From: Pseudomonas sp. Seg1
GTDB taxonomy: Bacteria > Pseudomonadota > Gammaproteobacteria > Pseudomonadales > Pseudomonadaceae
Reading direction: 5' to 3'
DNA: 64,000 nucleotides
NCBI RefSeq assembly: GCF_018326005.1
Contig: NZ_AP021903.1
Span: forward strand, 310,001 to 374,000
Shown here: in pieces, positions 2,852-64,000 of the stretch
Layout: every line of letters begins with the position of its first letter
Position numbering within the stretch: position 1 is the first letter of the stretch
Notes under the pieces: model-generated
The model's input: only the letters and a program-made list of their open reading frames with translations
What the model was told of the DNA's origin: nothing
The model's database searches: none
Made by a program: the position numbers and the translations under genes

Positions 2852-3064
2852 TTTGGATTCCTTCACGCGTCAGTCGCCCCAATATGGGGGTGGGCAGGAC
2901 GGTCTACAAGGGTGAAGTTGAAACTGGCGTTTTCGCCTGGTTTTTGAGCCACAACGGCCCGTGTCGATTGCCAACTTCACTCCTTGAATCTGGCTATTGC
3001 GCGCACGGAAAAGTTCGACGCCGCAGACGCAGCGCCGAAATTAACTCAAATTGATGACCAGTAG

Positions 3065-3448
3065 CTACAGGACAGCGAACGTGCCTTGCGCTTTTGCGAC
3101 CAGTTTGTCCCCTTGCATTACGTCGGCTTCGACCACCAGCGTACGCCGGCCCGGGTGGATCACCCGCGCCGTGCACAGCACCTCACCGTCGGAAACGGCA
3201 CGGATATAGTTGATCTTGCACTCGATGGTCGCGCTTTGCTGATCGAAGCCATGCACGCTGGAACAAGCCAGCCCCATGGCGATGTCGACCAGACTGAACA
3301 GCGCGCCTCCGTGCAATTTGCCACCGCGATTGCGCAGTTGCGGTTCCAGCACCAGGGCGACTTGCGCCACCCCGGTTTCCAGGCTGTGCAGGCGGCAGCC
3401 CAACAGCTTGAAAAACGCGCTCTCGACGAGCCCGGCCGGAATTTCCAT
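3065..3448 (-). CDS. PaaI-family hotdog thioesterase
   Basis: This 127-residue protein has the PaaI/YiaJ-type hotdog signature: 'RNRGGKLHGGALFSLVDIAMG' carries the conserved HGG..F.L.D motif, followed by beta strands and the block 'GRRTLVVEADV'. Family members hydrolyse acyl- or aryl-CoA thioesters; the substrate cannot be read here. The ATG overlaps the tex TGA (TGATG), so the two genes are translationally coupled. The same tex-thioesterase-gshA order is found in P. aeruginosa (PA5201-PA5203). No signal peptide is present, so it is cytoplasmic. Confidence 0.88.
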   Translation of the reverse strand: MEIPAGLVESAFFKLLGCRLHSLETGVAQVALVLEPQLRNRGGKLHGGALFSLVDIAMGLACSSVHGFDQQSATIECKINYIRAVSDGEVLCTARVIHPGRRTLVVEADVMQGDKLVAKAQGTFAVL

Positions 3449-6985: not shown

Positions 6986-8299
6986 ATGAAAACCCCCGTC
7001 TGGTTCCCCCAAAGTTTTTTCTCCCGCACCCTCTGGCTGGTGCTCATCGTCGTGCTGTTTTCCAAGGCGCTGACCCTGGTTTATCTATTGATGAACGAGG
7101 ACGTGCTGGTGGATCGCCAATACAGCCACGGCGTCGCCCTGACGCTGCGCGCCTATTGGGCCGCTGACGAAGAAAATCGCGCGAAGATCGCTGACGCCGC
7201 CACCCTGATCCGGGTGGTGGGTGCCGGCGTGCCGGAAGGCGAACAGCACTGGCCCTACAGCGAAATCTACCAACGGCAAATGCAGGCGGAACTCGGTGCC
7301 GACACCGAAGTGCGATTGCGCATGCACTCGCCGCCGGCATTGTGGGTTCGCGCGCCGAGCCTGGGCGATGGCTGGTTGAAAGTCCCGTTGTATCCGCACC
7401 CGTTGCGTGGCCAGAAAATCTGGAACGTGCTCGGCTGGTTCCTGGCGATCGGTTTGCTGTCGACCGCCTCGGCGTGGATTTTCGTCAGCCAGCTCAACCA
7501 ACCCTTGAAGCGTCTGGTCTACGCTGCCCGGCAACTCGGTCAGGGTCGCAGCGTGCGCCTGCCGATCAGCGATACGCCAAGCGAAATGACCGAGGTGTAT
7601 CGCGCCTTCAACCAGATGGCCGAAGATGTCGAACAGGCCGGCCGTGAGCGTGAATTGATGTTGGCAGGGGTTTCCCACGACTTGCGTACACCGTTGACCC
7701 GATTACGGCTGTCGCTGGAGTTGATGGGCGACCGCAACGACCTGACTGACGACATGGTGCGCGATATCGAAGACATGGACGCGATTCTCGACCAGTTCCT
7801 AGCGTTCATCCGTGATGGTCGTGATGAGTCGGTGGAGGAGGTCGATCTCAGCGATCTGGTGCGTGAGGTGGCGGCACCGTACAACCAGAACGAAGAGAAA
7901 GTGCGCTTGCGCCTCGAGCCGATCCAGCCGTTTCCGCTACGTCGGGTGTCGATGAAACGCCTGTTGAACAACTTGATCGGCAACGCCTTGAATCATGCTG
8001 GCAGCAGTGTGGAAGTCGCCGCCTATGTGTCCGGTGATGTCAGCGCGCCGTATGTGGTGCTGAGCGTGATGGACCGCGGGGCGGGGATCGATCCTTCGGA
8101 ACTTGAAGCGATTTTCAACCCGTTTACCCGAGGAGATCGGGCGCGGGGCGGCAAGGGCACCGGGTTGGGGCTGGCGATCGTGAAGCGGATTGCTTCGATG
8201 CATGGGGGCAATGTTGAGTTGCGTAACCGGTCTGGGGGTGGGCTTGAAGCGCGGGTGCGGTTGCCGTTGGGGCTGATGTTGCCGCGGGATGCCGTTTAA
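6986..8299 (+). CDS. envZ: EnvZ-family sensor histidine kinase (AmgS-like)
   Basis: This 437-residue inner-membrane kinase partners the upstream OmpR. A first membrane segment is at about residues 15-36, a periplasmic loop follows to about 145, and a second membrane segment is near 147-168. Then come a HAMP region ('NQPLKRLVYAARQLGQG'), a HisKA helix with phospho-accepting H231 in 'GVSHDLRTPLTRLRLSLE', and a HATPase domain with N box 'LNNLIGNALNHA', G1 'VMDRGAGID' and G2 'GKGTGLGLAIVKRI'. Length and motif order match EnvZ. The Shine-Dalgarno is weak, and a REP palindrome separates it from ompR. Confidence 0.94.
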   Translation: MKTPVWFPQSFFSRTLWLVLIVVLFSKALTLVYLLMNEDVLVDRQYSHGVALTLRAYWAADEENRAKIADAATLIRVVGAGVPEGEQHWPYSEIYQRQMQAELGADTEVRLRMHSPPALWVRAPSLGDGWLKVPLYPHPLRGQKIWNVLGWFLAIGLLSTASAWIFVSQLNQPLKRLVYAARQLGQGRSVRLPISDTPSEMTEVYRAFNQMAEDVEQAGRERELMLAGVSHDLRTPLTRLRLSLELMGDRNDLTDDMVRDIEDMDAILDQFLAFIRDGRDESVEEVDLSDLVREVAAPYNQNEEKVRLRLEPIQPFPLRRVSMKRLLNNLIGNALNHAGSSVEVAAYVSGDVSAPYVVLSVMDRGAGIDPSELEAIFNPFTRGDRARGGKGTGLGLAIVKRIASMHGGNVELRNRSGGGLEARVRLPLGLMLPRDAV

Positions 8300-8307
8300 A
8301 ACATAAA

Positions 8308-8484
8308 CCCTCACCCCAGCCCTCTCCCAGAGGGAGAGGAGGCCGACCGAGGTGTCTGGCGTTGTACATCGACCTGAAAGACTGGCTCGATTGTGGATTC
8401 GGCACAGCAGGATCAGGTCGGCGTATCTCTTAAGCATCTCCCTATCAGTCCCCTCTCCCTATGGGAGAGGGTTAGGGTGAGGGG
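8308..8484. repeat. Long inverted-repeat element, 'CCCTCACCCC...GGGTGAGGGG' family
   Basis: The element starts CCCTCACCCCAGCCCTCTCCC and ends with the inverted arm GGGAGAGGGTTAGGGTGAGGGG. Between the arms lies about 130 bases containing TCAGGTCGGCGTATCT. A second complete copy is at 31257-31427 and a half copy at 1186-1268. Terminal inverted repeats plus dispersed copies suggest a non-autonomous mobile repeat. It sits between the convergent genes envZ and rimK. Confidence 0.7.
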
Positions 8485-8499
8485 CTCTTGCTCTTCGCT

Positions 8500-9405
8500 C
8501 TAGCCCTTACCCTTGGTGCGAGTCATATTCGGCCCGCCATTCTTCTCAAGGTGCTCGATGATGATCCCCGCCACATTCTTCCCTGTGGTGGTCTCGATCC
8601 CCTCCAGCCCCGGCGACGAGTTCACTTCCATCACCAGCGGCCCATGATTGGAACGCAGGATATCCACACCCGCCACCGCCAGGCCCATGACTTTGGCAGC
8701 ACGCAACGCGGTCATGCGTTCTTCCGGGGTGATCTTGATCAGGCTGGCGCTGCCGCCGCGATGCAGGTTGGAACGGAATTCACCCGGTTTGGCCTGACGC
8801 TTCATCGCCGCGATCACCTTGTCGCCGACTACAAAGCAGCGGATGTCCGCGCCGCCCGCTTCCTTGATGTATTCCTGAACCATGATGTTCTGCTTCAGGC
8901 CCATGAACGCCTCGATCACCGACTCCGCAGCGGTCGCGGTTTCGCACAACACCACCCCAATGCCCTGAGTGCCTTCCAGCACTTTGATCACCAGTGGCGC
9001 GCCGTTGACCATGTCGATCAGGTCGGGGATGTCATCCGGCGAGTGGGCAAACCCGGTCACCGGCAAACCGATGCCGCGCCGCGAAAGCAACTGCAGCGAG
9101 CGCAACTTGTCCCGCGAACGGGCAATCGCCACCGATTCGTTGAGCGGGAACACACCCATCATTTCAAACTGACGCAACACTGCGCAGCCATAGAACGTCA
9201 CCGACGCGCCGATCCGCGGGATCACCGCGTCGAAACCTTCCAGCGGTTTGCCGCGATAGTGGATCTGCGGCTTGTGGCTGGCGATGTTCATGTAGGCGCG
9301 CAAAGTGTCGATCACTACCATTTCATGCCCGCGTTCGGTGCCAGCTTCGACCAGACGACGGGTGGAATACAGACGCGGATTCCGCGACAGCACAGCGATC
9401 TTCAT
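8500..9405 (-). CDS. rimK: Ribosomal protein S6--L-glutamate ligase RimK
   Basis: RimK is the ATP-grasp enzyme that adds glutamates to the C-terminus of ribosomal protein S6. The 301 residues carry the family marks '[12 protein letters not shown]', '[13 protein letters not shown]', '[13 protein letters not shown]', '[15 protein letters not shown]' and the metal-binding end of the ATP-grasp fold '[25 protein letters not shown]'. Its ATG overlaps the rimB TGA (ATGA). In P. fluorescens SBW25 RimK activity is reported to be tuned by RimA, RimB and cyclic-di-GMP, remodelling the proteome for niche colonisation; this operon has the same three genes in the same order. Confidence 0.95.
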
Positions 9406-59095: not shown

Positions 59096-59869
59096 TTAGC
59101 GGTTGCTGGACATGAATTGTTTGCAGCGCGCCGAAAGCGGGTTTTCGAACACCTGCTGTGGCGATCCTTGCTCTTCTATAAGGCCCTGATGAAGGAACAC
59201 CACTTCGCTGGAGACCTGACGGGCGAAACCCATTTCGTGGGTCACAAGCAGCATGGTGCGGCCTTCTTCGGCCAATGCGCGGATGACACTAAGTACTTCC
59301 TGAACCATTTCCGGGTCAAGCGCGGAGGTGGGTTCGTCGAACAGGATCACCTTCGGTTGCATGGCCAGCGTGCGGGCAATCGCTGCGCGTTGTTGCTGGC
59401 CACCGGACAATTGCGCCGGGTAGGCGTGGCGCTTGTCGGCGATACCGACCTTGGCCAGCAGCGCTTCGGCGACTTCGATGGCCTCAGCCTTGCTCTGGCC
59501 GAGCACACGGCGCGGTGCCTCGATGATGTTGTCGAGGATGCTCATGTGCGGCCACAGATTAAAGTTTTGAAACACAAAACCAATTTCGGAACGCAGGCGG
59601 TTGATCTGTTTGCCGTCGGCGGCAACCAGTTCGCCATTTTTGGCGGCCTTGAGCTTGAGTTCTTCACCGGCCACCAGAATCTGGCCCTGATGCGGGTTTT
59701 CCAGCAGGTTGATGCAACGCAGGAACGTGGACTTGCCGGAACCGGAGGAACCCAGGATCGAGATCACATCGCCGTCACGGGCGGTCAGCGAAATGCCTTT
59801 GAGCACCTCAAGCTTTCCGTAGCGTTTGTGCAAGTTGCGGATTTCAAGCGCGGGCGTGGCCTCAGCCAT
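59096..59869 (-). CDS. Basic amino acid ABC transporter ATP-binding protein
   Basis: This 257-residue ATPase of HisP type has Walker A 'ILGSSGSGKSTFLR', Q-loop 'FVFQNFNLWPHMS', signature 'AQLSGGQQQRAAIARTLAM', Walker B 'VILFDEPTSALD' and H-loop 'MLLVTHEMGF'. It heads the operon ATPase - binding protein - two permeases - methyltransferase on the minus strand, a gene order like P. aeruginosa PA5152-PA5155. Confidence 0.95.
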   Translation of the reverse strand: MAEATPALEIRNLHKRYGKLEVLKGISLTARDGDVISILGSSGSGKSTFLRCINLLENPHQGQILVAGEELKLKAAKNGELVAADGKQINRLRSEIGFVFQNFNLWPHMSILDNIIEAPRRVLGQSKAEAIEVAEALLAKVGIADKRHAYPAQLSGGQQQRAAIARTLAMQPKVILFDEPTSALDPEMVQEVLSVIRALAEEGRTMLLVTHEMGFARQVSSEVVFLHQGLIEEQGSPQQVFENPLSARCKQFMSSNR

Positions 59870-60421
59870 GTGCGTTCCTCATATATGTTGCGCTCCAGCT
59901 GTTGGGTGGCCTTCCTGGCGAGGCGGCCACGCTAGCATAGCGTTTCAATGGCAGCCAACAGCGCTACGAGCGGTAAACGGATGGCATGTGGCAGGTTGTC
60001 GCATCAGCACAGCTGACTGTCGCCCCATCAACAACCGAACGGGTGTTTGATCGTGCAATCCCGTGGGTGTCGCGTAAAAAAAGGCGCGATGTTGCCAGCT
60101 TTGGCGGGGTGTTGGAAGCGCTATCCGGCCGAACGTTCCTGAATCGCCCTTTTATTGTGCATCCCACACTTTTTCAGTGTGTTTCTGGTGCGCCCGATCG
60201 TTTGAAAAGTGAGTCGCAGGGTAACGCTCTGGCGTAATGCCATTAAATCCAAGGACTTGCGATGACTGTCCGGTCGCGCCGGAAACCGCAGGCCAGAAGA
60301 GTTTGAAACATTTTGGCGCAATTATTGCGTGCAGAATCTGGAACGCCCCGTTGGTTTCTTTTTACGAGAAGGAAAACCAGACAGGACGGACGCAATCGCT
60401 TTCCTCGCAAAGGTAGTTCCG
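59870..60421. other. Divergent spacer between the ABC importer and the permease
   Basis: This 552-base spacer contains no convincing gene. It carries a small hairpin CACACT/AGTGTG (60165-60181) and, near the permease, a sigma-54-type promoter listed separately. Confidence 0.4.
60313..60329 (+). promoter_or_regulatory. Sigma-54-type promoter for the permease
   Basis: TTGGCGCAATTATTGCG has the GG (60315-60316) and GC (60327-60328) exactly 10 bases apart, close to the consensus TGGCAC-N5-TTGC. It lies about 93 bases before the gabP ATG. Confidence 0.6.
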
Positions 60422-61813
60422 ATGAGCAGTACCCCAAGCTCCAATGGCCTTGAACAAGGGCTCAAACCGCGTCATGTGACCATGCTGTCGATCGCCGGTG
60501 TTATCGGCGCAGGTCTGTTCGTTGGCTCCGGCCACGCCATCGCTGCCGCCGGCCCTGCCGTGCTGCTGGCCTACGCCGCTGCCGGTACCCTGGTGGTGCT
60601 GGTGATGCGCATGCTCGGCGAAATGGCGGTTGCTTCGCCGGACACCGGTTCGTTCTCGACTTATGCCGACCGTGCCATCGGGCACTGGGCCGGTTTCACC
60701 ATCGGCTGGTTGTATTGGTGGTTCTGGGTATTGGTGATTCCATTGGAAGCCAACGCCGCCGCGACCATCCTGCACGCGTGGTTCCCCGATGTGGGTATCT
60801 GGGCTTTCGCTCTGATCATCACCATGTTGCTGACTGTGACCAACCTGTTCAGCGTGAAGAATTACGGCGAGTTCGAATTCTGGTTTGCCCTGATCAAAGT
60901 GTTGGCGATCATTGGCTTCATCATCCTCGGTCTGGCAGCGATCTTCGGCTTCCTGCCGAACAGCCAGGTCAGCGGTGTTTCGCACCTGTTCGACACGCAA
61001 GGCTTCCTGCCAAACGGCATGGGCGCGGTGTTGGGCGCGATCCTGACCACCATGTTCTCGTTCATGGGTACCGAAATCGTGACCATCGCGGCCGCGGAAT
61101 CGAAAAACCCGGGCAAGCAAATCTCCAAGGCCACCAACTCGGTGATCTGGCGGATCGGCTTGTTCTACCTTGTATCGATCTTCATCGTTGTGGCGCTGGT
61201 GCCGTGGAACGATCCTACGCTGGCCAACCTTGGTTCCTACCAGACCGTGCTTGAGCGCATGGGCATCCCTAACGCCAAGATGATCGTTGATATCGTGGTG
61301 CTGGTCGCTGTAACCAGCTGCCTGAACTCGGCGCTCTACACCTCGTCGCGCATGCTGTTCTCCCTGGGCAAACGCGGTGATGCACCGGGCATGGCGACTC
61401 GCGTGAACAAAAGCGGTACGCCTTACTGGGCGGTGATGCTGTCTACTGGTGCAGCGTTCCTGTGCACATTCGCCAACTACGTGGCTCCGGCCGCCGTGTT
61501 CGAATTCCTGCTGGCCAGCTCCGGCGCCATCGCGCTGCTGGTGTACCTGGTGATCGCCTTCTCGCAACTGCGTATGCGCAAACAGCGCGTGGCTCGCGGC
61601 GAGAAAATCGTCTTCAGCATGTGGCTCTTTCCGGGCCTGACCTACGCGGTGATCATCTTCATCATCGCGGCCCTGACCATCATGCTGTTCCAGGAAGCCC
61701 ACCGCGTGGAAATCCTCGCGACCGGCATGCTGAGTCTGCTGGTCGTCGCAGCCGGTCTGCTGGTGGCGCGCCGCCGCAAGCTGGAAAAAAGTGGTGCGGT
61801 GGTGCTGAACTGA
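60422..61813 (+). CDS. gabP: GABA-permease-like amino acid transporter
   Basis: This 463-residue APC-superfamily transporter has about 12 membrane segments and the amino acid permease opening 'GLKPRHVTMLSIAGVIGAGLFVGSGHAIAAAGPAVLLAY', 'MLGEMAVASPDTGSFSTYADRAIGHWAGFTIGWLYWW' and 'GTEIVTIAAAESKNP'. It is closest in my memory to GabP, the 4-aminobutyrate importer, although other GABA-like substrates are possible. Start is the ATG at 60422. A sigma-54-type promoter upstream fits nitrogen control. It ends in a strong terminator. Confidence 0.85.
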   Translation: MSSTPSSNGLEQGLKPRHVTMLSIAGVIGAGLFVGSGHAIAAAGPAVLLAYAAAGTLVVLVMRMLGEMAVASPDTGSFSTYADRAIGHWAGFTIGWLYWWFWVLVIPLEANAAATILHAWFPDVGIWAFALIITMLLTVTNLFSVKNYGEFEFWFALIKVLAIIGFIILGLAAIFGFLPNSQVSGVSHLFDTQGFLPNGMGAVLGAILTTMFSFMGTEIVTIAAAESKNPGKQISKATNSVIWRIGLFYLVSIFIVVALVPWNDPTLANLGSYQTVLERMGIPNAKMIVDIVVLVAVTSCLNSALYTSSRMLFSLGKRGDAPGMATRVNKSGTPYWAVMLSTGAAFLCTFANYVAPAAVFEFLLASSGAIALLVYLVIAFSQLRMRKQRVARGEKIVFSMWLFPGLTYAVIIFIIAALTIMLFQEAHRVEILATGMLSLLVVAAGLLVARRRKLEKSGAVVLN

Positions 61814-61830
61814 TCCGTAACACGTAATGC

Positions 61831-61878
61831 AAAACGGCCGCTGTCAGTGATGACGAGCGGCCGTTTTTGTTTGAGAGC
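61831..61878. terminator. gabP terminator / left 48-base direct repeat
   Basis: AAAACGGCCGCT and AGCGGCCGTTTTTG form a strong stem around a 13-base loop, with a T-run, 17 bases after gabP. The 48 bases 61831-61878 recur at 62633-62680 in the same orientation with only two differences (G/T at loop position 25 and A/T near the end). Confidence 0.93.
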
Positions 61879-61883
61879 TTTGC

Positions 61884-62291
61884 TCAGACGGGATGAACCC
61901 AATCCTCAATACGCAATCCGGAAACACGTTCAAATTCCCGCACATTGTTCGTGACTACGATAAGTCCAAGCGACCGTGCGTGGCCTGCGATCATTTGGTC
62001 GTACGGTCCAATGGGTGTTCCCGCTTTCGCAAGTTCAGATCGAATCATCCCGGTCTGTGCTGCTGCGTCATTATCGAAAGGCAAGATTTCCAATCGCGCA
62101 ACGAATCCTTCGACAACCGCTAGATTCTTTTCTGGGGCCGCGGACTTTTCAGCACCGTAAATAAGCTCCATGAGCGTGATAGCGCTGATGCACAACTGCC
62201 CGGAATGTCGATTGAAAGCTTCCCGGACAATTTGTGGTTTGTTCTTGATGGTGAAGATGCAGATGTTGGTATCCAGCATGTATTTGATCAT
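61884..62291 (-). CDS. vapC: VapC-type PIN-domain toxin
   Basis: This 135-residue PIN-domain ribonuclease has the acidic residues D7 ('YMLDTNICIF'), E42 ('ITLMELIYGAEKS') and D98 ('IGPYDQMIAGHARS') expected for Mg2+-dependent RNA cleavage, and 'VTNNVREFERVSGLRIEDW' at the end. Many VapC toxins cut the initiator tRNA. Its ATG overlaps the vapB stop by one base (TGATG). The module is bounded by two 48-base direct repeats. Confidence 0.94.
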   Translation of the reverse strand: MIKYMLDTNICIFTIKNKPQIVREAFNRHSGQLCISAITLMELIYGAEKSAAPEKNLAVVEGFVARLEILPFDNDAAAQTGMIRSELAKAGTPIGPYDQMIAGHARSLGLIVVTNNVREFERVSGLRIEDWVHPV

Positions 62292-62521
62292 CAGAACGAC
62301 TCGCGCTCCTGATCAGCGGGTTGCTCACGGTCAGCCATGAAATCAGGGGTGACGCTGTCGCCATCAAACCAGCTATCCCAGCTTTCTCCAGCAGGCGTAA
62401 TGACGCGTGTTCTGCCAATCGCGATGATTTCCACTCGTTTAACGTCGCCGGGCATCGCAACTGCCTTTGGCAGTCGAACTGCCTGACTTCTATTGCTCAT
62501 GAAAATTGTGGTCTGTTCCAT
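62291..62521 (-). CDS. vapB: VapB-type AbrB-fold antitoxin
   Basis: This 76-residue protein opens with the swapped-hairpin AbrB fold seen in VapB proteins ('TTIFMSNRSQAVRLPKAVAMPGDVKRVEIIAIG') and continues into an acidic, probably flexible tail ('WDSWFDGDSVTPDF', 'ADREQPADQERESF') that would bind VapC. It precedes vapC and, as is normal, the pair would autoregulate from the spacer at 62522-62632, where GGAGGTC precedes the ATG. Confidence 0.93.
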   Translation of the reverse strand: MEQTTIFMSNRSQAVRLPKAVAMPGDVKRVEIIAIGRTRVITPAGESWDSWFDGDSVTPDFMADREQPADQERESF

Positions 62522-62632
62522 ATTTGACCTCCAAGGTCTGCTCCTGCGATGAGCTCAGGATAGGTTGAGCTTGGGATATGTCAATGGGATATACATTGTC
62601 ATCGGACAAAGGGTAACCAAGCCATCCAAACT

Positions 62633-62680
62633 AAAACGGCCGCTGTCAGTGATGACTAGCGGCCGTTTTTGTTTGTGAGC
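62633..62680. repeat. Right 48-base direct repeat (terminator copy)
   Basis: A copy of 61831-61878 with 46 of 48 bases identical, including the full terminator stem. It now lies directly downstream of the minus-strand gene 62686-63138, for which it acts as terminator, and upstream of vapBC. Confidence 0.93.
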
Positions 62681-62685
62681 GTGGT

Positions 62686-63138
62686 TTATTCGCTCTTTTC
62701 TTCCGATGCTTCCTGCGACTTGCCGTAAGTATCCAGCGCAACCCCGAAATCGGTGATGAACTGTGGCTCGCTCAGCCAGGCCTGGGCGGTTTCGATGTCC
62801 ATGCCGTCGGCCCACATGCGGTAGTCGATCAGCATGTCGGCGGCCAAGTGGGTGGCGGCCATGCCTTCGTTGTCGGCGTTTTCCATGTCCAGCAGCTCTG
62901 GATGATCAACGATGATGAACGCCAGTTCGCGCAGCAGCGTCAACAGCATCTCGTTGCGGCTGATGGCTTCGGCGTCGCGCATTTTGCTGAACATCGCCAG
63001 GGTGTAATCCGGGATCGGCTCGGCGAGGTGACCGAGGTCTTCGTCCTGATCCAGCGGCTTACGCCCGACCATACGGATTTGCTTGGCTTTGGCCTTGGCG
63101 CGTTTGGCGCGTTTCTGTTGCTTGTTCAGGGATGCCAT
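62686..63138 (-). CDS. Tandem paralogue 1, protein of unknown function
   Basis: This 150-residue protein starts 'MASLNKQQKRAKRAKAKAKQIR', a strongly basic segment that could bind nucleic acid, followed by an acidic helical domain ('YTLAMFSKMRDAEAISRNEMLLTLLREL', 'DMLIDYRMWADGMDIETAQAWLSEPQFITDF'). It is paralogous to the gene directly upstream (63145-63558), sharing the basic start, 'F.KM.DAE.IS', 'IDYR.W' and 'A.AW...P.F..D'. The two genes are 6 bases apart and so co-transcribed. No known function. Confidence 0.8.
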   Translation of the reverse strand: MASLNKQQKRAKRAKAKAKQIRMVGRKPLDQDEDLGHLAEPIPDYTLAMFSKMRDAEAISRNEMLLTLLRELAFIIVDHPELLDMENADNEGMAATHLAADMLIDYRMWADGMDIETAQAWLSEPQFITDFGVALDTYGKSQEASEEKSE

Positions 63139-63144
63139 GGGAAC

Positions 63145-63558
63145 TCAGTTCTTCTGTTGGGTTTGTGCGGCGATCGCGTCGGACGCTGCCACATAGTCGG
63201 CCTGGAAGGCCGGGGATTCGATCCACGCCAATGCGCCGGCTTCGTCGGTTTCCTGGGACCACTGGCGATACTCGATCAGCGCCGCGAGGATGAAGTCCAT
63301 CGCGCCTTCTTCGCCTTCCTGCTCATAGACCAGTTCCAGCAACGGGTCTTCGAGGAACGCGGTGCACAGGGCTTGCTGGCTGATCTTCTCGGCGTCGATC
63401 ATTTTCTTGAACAGCTCGGTCAGATCCACCGACTCGAAGTCGATGCGGTCGTCGTTCGGGTCCAGCTCGACCGGCGCTTCGGCGCGTTTGCTGCGGTTCT
63501 GTTTGGCCTTGGTCTTGGCCCGTGCGGCGCGTTTTTGCTGCTTGTTGGCGGAGGCCAT
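63145..63558 (-). CDS. Tandem paralogue 2, protein of unknown function
   Basis: This 137-residue protein has the same layout as the next gene: basic start 'MASANKQQKRAARAKTKAKQNR', an acidic linker ('VELDPNDDRIDFESVDLTEL'), 'LFKKMIDAEKISQQALCTAFL' and 'LAALIEYRQWSQETDEAGALAWIESPAFQADYV'. The pair arose by tandem duplication. It follows the alpha/beta hydrolase gene on the same strand by 29 bases. Confidence 0.8.
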   Translation of the reverse strand: MASANKQQKRAARAKTKAKQNRSKRAEAPVELDPNDDRIDFESVDLTELFKKMIDAEKISQQALCTAFLEDPLLELVYEQEGEEGAMDFILAALIEYRQWSQETDEAGALAWIESPAFQADYVAASDAIAAQTQQKN

Positions 63559-63587
63559 GGTGTTGTTCCGTGGTGCGTTGGTTGGGC

Positions 63588-64000
63588 TCAGCTGCGCGGA
63601 ATTTGCCGCCCGGGTGTGTCGGGGGCCAATTCACCGGTTTGCAGCCAGGTCAGAGCGATGGGCCATAGTGTGGCTTGGTATGCGCTGCGAAAAAAGGCGA
63701 AATGTCCGACTTGTTGCTCGCCGATGTCCTGCGGTTCGATGCGCAGGTGGGTTTTCGAGGCGTTAGTGAAGTAGGCGAGCAGGCGTTCGATGGCCGAAAC
63801 AGTGCCGTAGGGATCGTCGCTGATGCTGATCGCCAGGGTTTGAGCACGGACATTGTCGAAGGGCAGAGCGCCGCGTTTTTCCATGAGGGCGCGACCGCTT
63901 GGGCGCCGTTCGAAACGCGGGGCAGGCGTGCTCCAGTCGCGCACAACGCCGGTTGGCGTATCCTCCAGCCAGCCAAGGCGTTTGCCGGGGAAGTAGCCGC
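63588..64000 (-). CDS. Alpha/beta hydrolase, COG4757-like (5' end cut by window)
   Basis: The frame is open at the right edge, so only the last 136 residues are seen, beginning 'GYFPGKRLGWLEDTPTGVVRDW' and ending 'TPGRQIPRS'. 'AISISDDPYGTVSAIERLLAYF' and 'GHFAFFRSAYQATLWPIALTWL' contain the likely Asp (D in 'SDDPYG') and His (GH.AFFR) of a hydrolase triad, with the serine elbow lying beyond the edge. It resembles the predicted alpha/beta hydrolases of the COG4757 group. An internal GTG at 63944 is not the start. The two tandem paralogues follow on the same strand. Confidence 0.75.
   Translation of the reverse strand, partial: GYFPGKRLGWLEDTPTGVVRDWSTPAPRFERRPSGRALMEKRGALPFDNVRAQTLAISISDDPYGTVSAIERLLAYFTNASKTHLRIEPQDIGEQQVGHFAFFRSAYQATLWPIALTWLQTGELAPDTPGRQIPRS

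Follow-up and report, generated by a model that had tools for sequence, protein, structure and literature searches.

How chromosomal toxin-antitoxin pairs spread and are lost without mobility genes is a long-standing question, which is raised by a vapBC pair of Pseudomonas sp. Seg1. In the window (the whole stretch of 64,000 nucleotides that was analyzed), the gene order is gabP (+), T1, vapC and vapB (both -), T2, and hyp (-), where T1 and T2 are two copies of one sequence, T (Table 1). An earlier note, made from the letters of the window, had described T1 and T2 as 48-base direct repeats that each contain a complete terminator hairpin, with just vapBC between them, and had proposed that vapBC entered at the terminator and duplicated it. 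The repeats were confirmed by a repeat search and by folding: they are 46/48 identical (96%) and lie 802 bp apart. The 754 bases between them (61879 to 62632) indeed hold only vapC, vapB, and the upstream region. The question is whether this terminator is a site at which such cassettes are gained, exchanged, and lost, or a bystander that happens to border one.

Table 1. Features of the gabP-hyp locus in the window
Feature	Coordinates	Strand	Evidence
abc, presumably an ABC transporter ATP-binding gene; outer landmark	59096..59869	-	reading frame; name assumed from its sequence
gabP, GABA permease; left conserved flank	60422..61813	+	TIGR01773, 740.8 bits (cut-off 678.1)
T1, putative left bidirectional terminator copy, common to gabP (+) and vapBC (-)	61831..61878	.	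folds at -26.6 / -25.5 kcal/mol; 46/48 identical to T2
vapC, predicted tRNA(fMet)-specific endonuclease toxin; 3' end 5 nt from T1	61884..62291	-	NF010285, 234.1 bits (cut-off 143); PF01850 PIN; PDB 6ifc, E 4.4e-63
vapB, predicted antitoxin	62291..62521	-	NF040493, 116.5 bits (cut-off 60)
GGGATATGTCAATGGGATATAC, candidate VapB operator (putative role)	62573..62594	.	read in sequence; similar upstream of vapB in L158, L159, L160, and L162
T2, putative right terminator copy, ending hyp (-) ahead of the vapBC promoter region	62633..62680	.	repeat match and folding
hyp, hypothetical gene; right conserved flank	62686..63138	-	no Pfam/NCBIfam match; adjoins T in relatives
hyp2, tandem paralogue of hyp	63145..63558	-	direct repeats with hyp; no Pfam match

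Judged by its profile scores, the pair is a tRNA(fMet)-type toxin-antitoxin system with predicted toxin and antitoxin activities. VapC falls within the tRNA(fMet) endonuclease subfamily of PIN-domain toxins, and vapB lies directly upstream of vapC, overlapping it at 62291 in one operon, as in type II VapBC systems. Residues 1 to 131 of PDB entry 6ifc align with VapC, with MLDTN, MELIYGAEK, and GPYDQMIAGHA in common, and PDB matches of the same type include 3tnd and 9h6a. The toxin and antitoxin families are those of these known systems, and only the genomic setting is unusual. A GGGATATGTCAATGGGATATAC-like sequence precedes vapB at most other loci read. On the other side of T2, hyp and hyp2 (62686 to 63558) are conserved across the group and have no Pfam match.

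The hairpins of T1 and T2, which have an unpaired base, fold at -25.5 to -27.3 kcal/mol on either strand (z scores of -5.1 to -7.6 against shuffles). Because the hairpins are strong and T-runs flank them on both strands, the T copies look like bidirectional terminators: T1 could end both gabP and vapBC, and T2 could end hyp before the vapBC promoter region. The T1/T2 repeat is no chance match. In the host genome (6,625,535 bp), a 43-mer of T has two matches only, T1 and T2, when up to 3 mismatches are allowed, and its reversed control has none. A survey of 864,000 bases of this genome (the window plus 40 slightly overlapping 20-kb stretches) returned 29 direct repeats of at least 30 bp that lie 250 to 4000 bp apart, and T1/T2 is the only one of them both no longer than 130 bp and endowed with a stem of at least 12.

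In 73 of 298 Pseudomonas genomes, a 35-base T was found with up to 3 mismatches, each listed match lying at the hyp locus (positions compared by eye). Among at least 119 T-bearing stretches in a species genome collection, all 119 listed have gabP and/or hyp beside T, and the 80 for which organism names are listed are all Pseudomonas. Close T matches are therefore confined to the gabP-hyp locus among the matches listed, which rules out a generic terminator repeated at many unrelated loci, a finding that the earlier note had named as fatal to its proposal. Weaker T-like hairpins were seen elsewhere in G023, G026, G037, G050, and G070 (82 to 90% over about 40 to 57 query bases); the one in G037 may belong to the gabP-hyp locus.

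Occupied and empty versions of the site were compared across the genus. A search for hyp in 298 genus genomes gave a long match in 95 besides the window; 80 gabP-hyp regions, 15 further hyp regions, the window, and the 119 stretches found through T made up 215 regions, which collapsed by identical hyp to 176 distinct loci (L numbers), the collections holding one genome per species. Empty sites, with gabP, a gap of less than 130 bases, and one T, account for 83/176 loci, and no short gap has another number of T. Near full-length vapBC is present at 42/176 loci. At 7 of these, the stretch lacks gabP; of the 35 that do have it, 33 have two or three T copies (27 with two T, 5 with a further small gene, M, beside vapBC and two T, and 1 with three T), and the other two, L255 and L266, each have one recognizable T. 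Because T itself served to find the 119 stretches, the genus draw (the window and the 80 first regions) is the better measure of the association: two or three T copies accompany vapBC at 17/17 loci that also have gabP, and a single T is present in 38/38 short gaps. The 17 include L080 (G058), where gabP is present only in pieces beside the occupied site (2857 to 3248).

When vapBC is absent from a relative, there is almost always one T, not the two copies that would have told against the proposal of the earlier note. The exceptions are L073, in which a REP-like, repeat-rich insert separates two T copies, and L264, in which a vapB remnant does. A flanking repeat surrounds vapBC in 33/40 entries at the gabP-hyp locus (four of the 40 being second records of one genome) versus 1/28 vapBC at other loci; that single repeat is unrelated to T, and the other 27 have no flanking repeats longer than 17 bases. 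The locus entries without one are L093, L216, L238 (stretch cut), L147, L151, L154, and L149 (no vapB). In L093 (G297, near 7245 to 8509), gabP is missing and a gabP-leader-like sequence recognized by eye adjoins the 3' end of vapC, whereas hyp still has a T next to it; this looks like a deletion of gabP and T1.

The reading that we prefer, with a probability of about 0.7, is that the gabP-hyp terminator is a recurrent docking site for small cassettes, mainly vapBC, carrying two copies of T when occupied and one when empty. It is supported directly by the association with copy number and the restriction of T to one locus among the matches listed, and also by fast turnover, one gain, one transferred tract, one probable loss, and the presence of other cargo, all described below. 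The step that would duplicate T, and the enzymes that would be involved, we infer.

Turnover was judged on a locus tree of 143 tips, 37 of them with vapBC, in which presence changed 32 times versus a shuffle mean of 33.1 (369 of 1000 shuffles as low). This count drops four stretches that end before hyp, three of which show vapBC sequence; the full tree of 147 tips gave 33 changes (shuffle mean 33.0, minimum 27), and rescoring two of those tips gave 33 versus 34.7 in shuffles. Because presence is scattered on the tree no better than shuffled labels, turnover of vapBC is fast. Identity of vapBC broadly tracks that of gabP (rho 0.62, 561 pairs), so that much of it was presumably inherited or moved with its flanks, and across the whole set of pairs vapBC accumulates differences faster than gabP does (slope 1.5). 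The vapBC of the gabP-hyp locus, including those of a clade without gabP, form one group (support 0.924) versus 28 vapBC from elsewhere and hence appear to have long been tied to this neighborhood. In the gabP-less clade, related vapBC occupy the same abc-hyp neighborhood with neither gabP nor T; T is not strictly required for vapBC to live there. Several loci hold vapB remnants, which point to decay at the locus as well. Three members of the gabP-less clade (L147, L151, and L154) have a small gene on the + strand between vapBC and hyp, with an N terminus that is hydrophobic by eye.

This long association could also mean that vapBC with two terminators is ancestral and that its scattered absence reflects loss alone, through T1/T2 recombination, with no special mode of entry. 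The single vapBC group, its correlation with gabP, the vapB remnants, and the T1/T2 differences that L072 and L075 have in common all agree with such a history. However, it requires 57 losses on the locus tree versus 32 unrestricted changes, and L212 and the pair L043/L249 show apparent recent gain or transfer. We consider it unlikely.

L212 (P. mandelii 6A1) looks like a recent gain of vapBC with duplication of its target. A perfect 96-bp repeat, made up of the M 3' end, T, and the hyp 3' end, with the hairpin center at position 46 of 96, flanks a 720-bp vapBC block that lacks the last codons and the stop of vapC, which is the pattern expected from entry of a vapBC fragment. Compared with L094, which belongs to another species, the vapBC block is identical at 716/720 positions (99.4%), versus 92.0% for gabP, 94.1% for M, and 94.7% for hyp. 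L212 is a single case on a draft contig. The suggestion that its background is nearer to L088 than to L094 was dropped, as abc, gabP, and hyp are slightly nearer to L094, whereas M and hyp2 are nearer to L088. Entry at the terminator with duplication, as the earlier note had it, was thus seen once. One insertion event by itself does not fit a vapBC that is old and broadly tracks gabP, has been repeatedly lost and exchanged, and has relatives in a clade without gabP and T.

Divergence of gabP, of the cassette from T1 to T2, and of hyp (given below in this order) was compared in 17 chosen pairs. In L043/L249, it is 64/600 (10.7%), 15/767 (2.0%), and 27/450 (6.0%), with P values of 6.5e-12 and 2.8e-4, and it changes at the terminators, with differences inside the T copies. 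This single case shows what we read as a transferred tract with edges at both T copies; a vapBC pair that evolves slowly could give the same picture, and hyp of L043/L249 is also less divergent than gabP. The window and L268 present a milder version (10.2, 4.3, and 8.2%). In these 2/17 pairs the cassette lies below both flanks at P < 0.01, and in the other 15 not clearly so. The dip is weaker in window/L043 (10.2, 6.1, and 7.8%), window/L249 (11.0, 5.7, and 8.2%), and L249/L268 (12.0, 7.2, and 10.7%) and is missing from window/L052 (11.2, 9.6, and 10.4%) and L043/L268 (8.2, 7.6, and 8.2%). Eight close pairs look vertical, namely, L046/L052 (5.3, 4.7, and 3.3%), L187/L274 (3.2, 4.6, and 2.2%), L067/L181 (6.8, 9.2, and 4.7%), L166/L254 (4.5, 5.8, and 2.2%), L099/L226 (5.5, 7.6, and 5.3%), L072/L075 (4.2, 4.6, and 9.6%), L078/L230 (5.3, 13.6, and 6.0%), and L081/L089 (11.8, 12.1, and 6.0%).

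Two further pairs, L221/L226 (14.8, 7.2, and 8.0%) and L099/L221 (14.7, 9.4, and 8.2%), seem to fit exchange through a flank: low divergence continues into hyp, the cassette being less divergent than gabP and not than hyp. They bear on a second alternative, in which ordinary homologous recombination through gabP and hyp swaps occupied and empty sites and the terminators are bystanders kept by selection, the whole being a minimal mobile element. Conserved flanks with variable cargo also agree with this view, as does the low-divergence tract of L151/L154 in the T-less clade, which extends about 400 bp beyond vapB. T itself is conserved everywhere (43 distinct sequences among 193 copies), so the similarity of its copies may reflect constraint. 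On the other hand, the L043/L249 tract has its edges at T, flank exchange alone would not be expected to leave the 96-bp duplication of L212, and in the clade of the window the shared block reaches past the hairpin as far as TGAGC. Exchange through the flanks alone deserves to be taken seriously, but it strikes us as somewhat unlikely.

A probable precise loss of vapBC was found at L049. This empty site lies among vapBC carriers on the locus tree (support 0.673 for L049 with L046), its T is the variant that its relatives L046 and L052 carry in T1 and T2 alike, and its outer flanks are nearly identical to those of the occupied sister L046. Within a genome, T1 and T2 differ by 1.18 positions on average, versus 2.04 between genomes (34 genomes, P = 5e-5), and they are identical in 15/34 genomes. 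With the nearest vapBC-carrying relative as the control (32 genomes), the within-genome value of 1.22 is weakly better than the cross comparison (1.48, P = 0.047) and not better than the same-side comparison (1.36, P = 0.37). As the effect shrinks against the nearest carrier, copying between T1 and T2 is possible, not proven.

The slot also takes other cargo. Gene M, for which no Pfam match exceeded the cut-off, occupies the gabP-hyp interval of 17 stretches, which represent 15 distinct loci, alone or beside vapBC. The order is gabP-M-T-vapBC-T-hyp in L090, L094, L187, L212, and L274 and gabP-T-vapBC-T-M-T-hyp in L069 and its second record, L173. The terminator that precedes M on the left is built like T but has altered bases in both arms of its stem; it may therefore be an old T copy. 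Classing the 176 loci and clustering the cargo ORFs of the genus draw gave the layout of a minimal mobile element, with conserved flanks and variable small cargo.

A carrier and a mobility enzyme were then sought. No phage matched the region, viral contigs contained 0 T, and plasmid matches came from 1284 records, 1282 of them at 60 to 80% identity, with two short near matches within vapBC; a phage or plasmid carrier was rejected on these grounds. An integron was likewise rejected, as the integrase profile TIGR02249 gave six partial matches in the host genome, none over the cut-off. The 754-bp insert has no transposase, as a transposon or insertion sequence would, and the only inverted pair at its ends is the T palindromes themselves. 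Nor is it a group IIC intron, since it contains neither an intron RNA match nor a reverse transcriptase reading frame, its genes being vapC and vapB; positions 59500 to 64000 gave no Rfam match at the gathering threshold. The defense library had no match for the four proteins compared. A site-specific recombinase (integron-like, Xer/dif-like, or a transposase acting in trans) could in principle use T as its site, since the hairpin of T includes an unpaired base and the cassettes share T in the manner of attC or dif modules. The host genome without an integrase over the cut-off and an insert of vapBC only argue against it, and the presence of T at one locus only, among the matches listed, is hardly expected of the site of a mobile system; we regard such a recombinase as highly improbable.

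A docking site could work as follows. Homologous recombination or replication slippage between T copies would remove the cassette and leave one intact terminator. A T-bounded cassette on incoming DNA could pass between species if crossovers took place within T or close beside it. Now and then a vapBC fragment would enter anew and duplicate the terminator, perhaps when a staggered break that spans the palindrome is repaired by end joining; Ku is present in the host genome, which makes end joining possible. Retention would be favored if each T copy keeps read-through transcription out of gabP, vapBC, and hyp. A bolder version, which we entertain tentatively and rate below even odds, is that the bidirectional terminator itself serves as an attachment site that needs no recombinase, with duplicating entry, interspecies moves that end at T, varied order, and precise exit, the neighbors keeping their terminators throughout. 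A terminator duplicated together with its cargo would explain how a cassette can sit between two genes with neither disturbed, and a stop signal may thus serve as a docking site for mobile cassettes without any mobility enzyme in sight.

Several known systems resemble parts of this layout. Integron gene cassettes are bounded by attC sites, which are imperfect palindromes, and occur in differing order. The gabP-hyp cassettes share palindromic borders and varied order, whereas the host genome has no integrase over the cut-off and the site looks like a bidirectional terminator. The minimal mobile elements of Neisseria are said to consist of two conserved genes that hold differing small cargo by strain, with no mobility genes. 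For these elements, the accessible part of PMC1538595 refers to Saunders and Snyder 2002. The conserved gene pair, the variable small cargo, and the lack of mobility genes are alike; here, however, the same terminator lies on both sides of almost every occupied site, and one tract ends at T rather than in the flanking genes. The dif (pdif) modules of Acinetobacter plasmids, which include a 768-bp toxin-antitoxin module according to the accessible part of PMC6449649, are likewise small modules, with toxin-antitoxin or other content, bounded by short repeated sites. In contrast, T is a hairpin of the terminator type that is tied to a single place on the chromosome; the likeness noted here is one of layout. 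Class C group II introns also target intrinsic terminators (PMC4424553, accessible part), but they have an intron RNA and a reverse transcriptase, of which no match was found in the insert, and the same part of that source does not describe terminator duplication for introns. Among open-licence publications (titles and abstract beginnings), nothing was found on this locus, on toxin-antitoxin pairs at terminators, or linking vapBC and gabP in Pseudomonas. Because the locus occurs naturally in both occupied and empty states at one chromosomal site, it lends itself to direct tests of how a toxin-antitoxin pair is gained, transferred, and precisely lost.

Some loci are filled in other ways. In L048, L053, L059, L165, L200, L248, and L263, an insert of ~260 bp separates hyp from a single T; in the first three, its ORF resembles the C-terminal end of VapB by eye and is perhaps what is left of a decayed toxin-antitoxin pair. 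In L100 (G129), the intergenic region from 483 to 1511 contains, between T and hyp, a transposase-like ORF, which we take to be of the IS110/IS1111 type.
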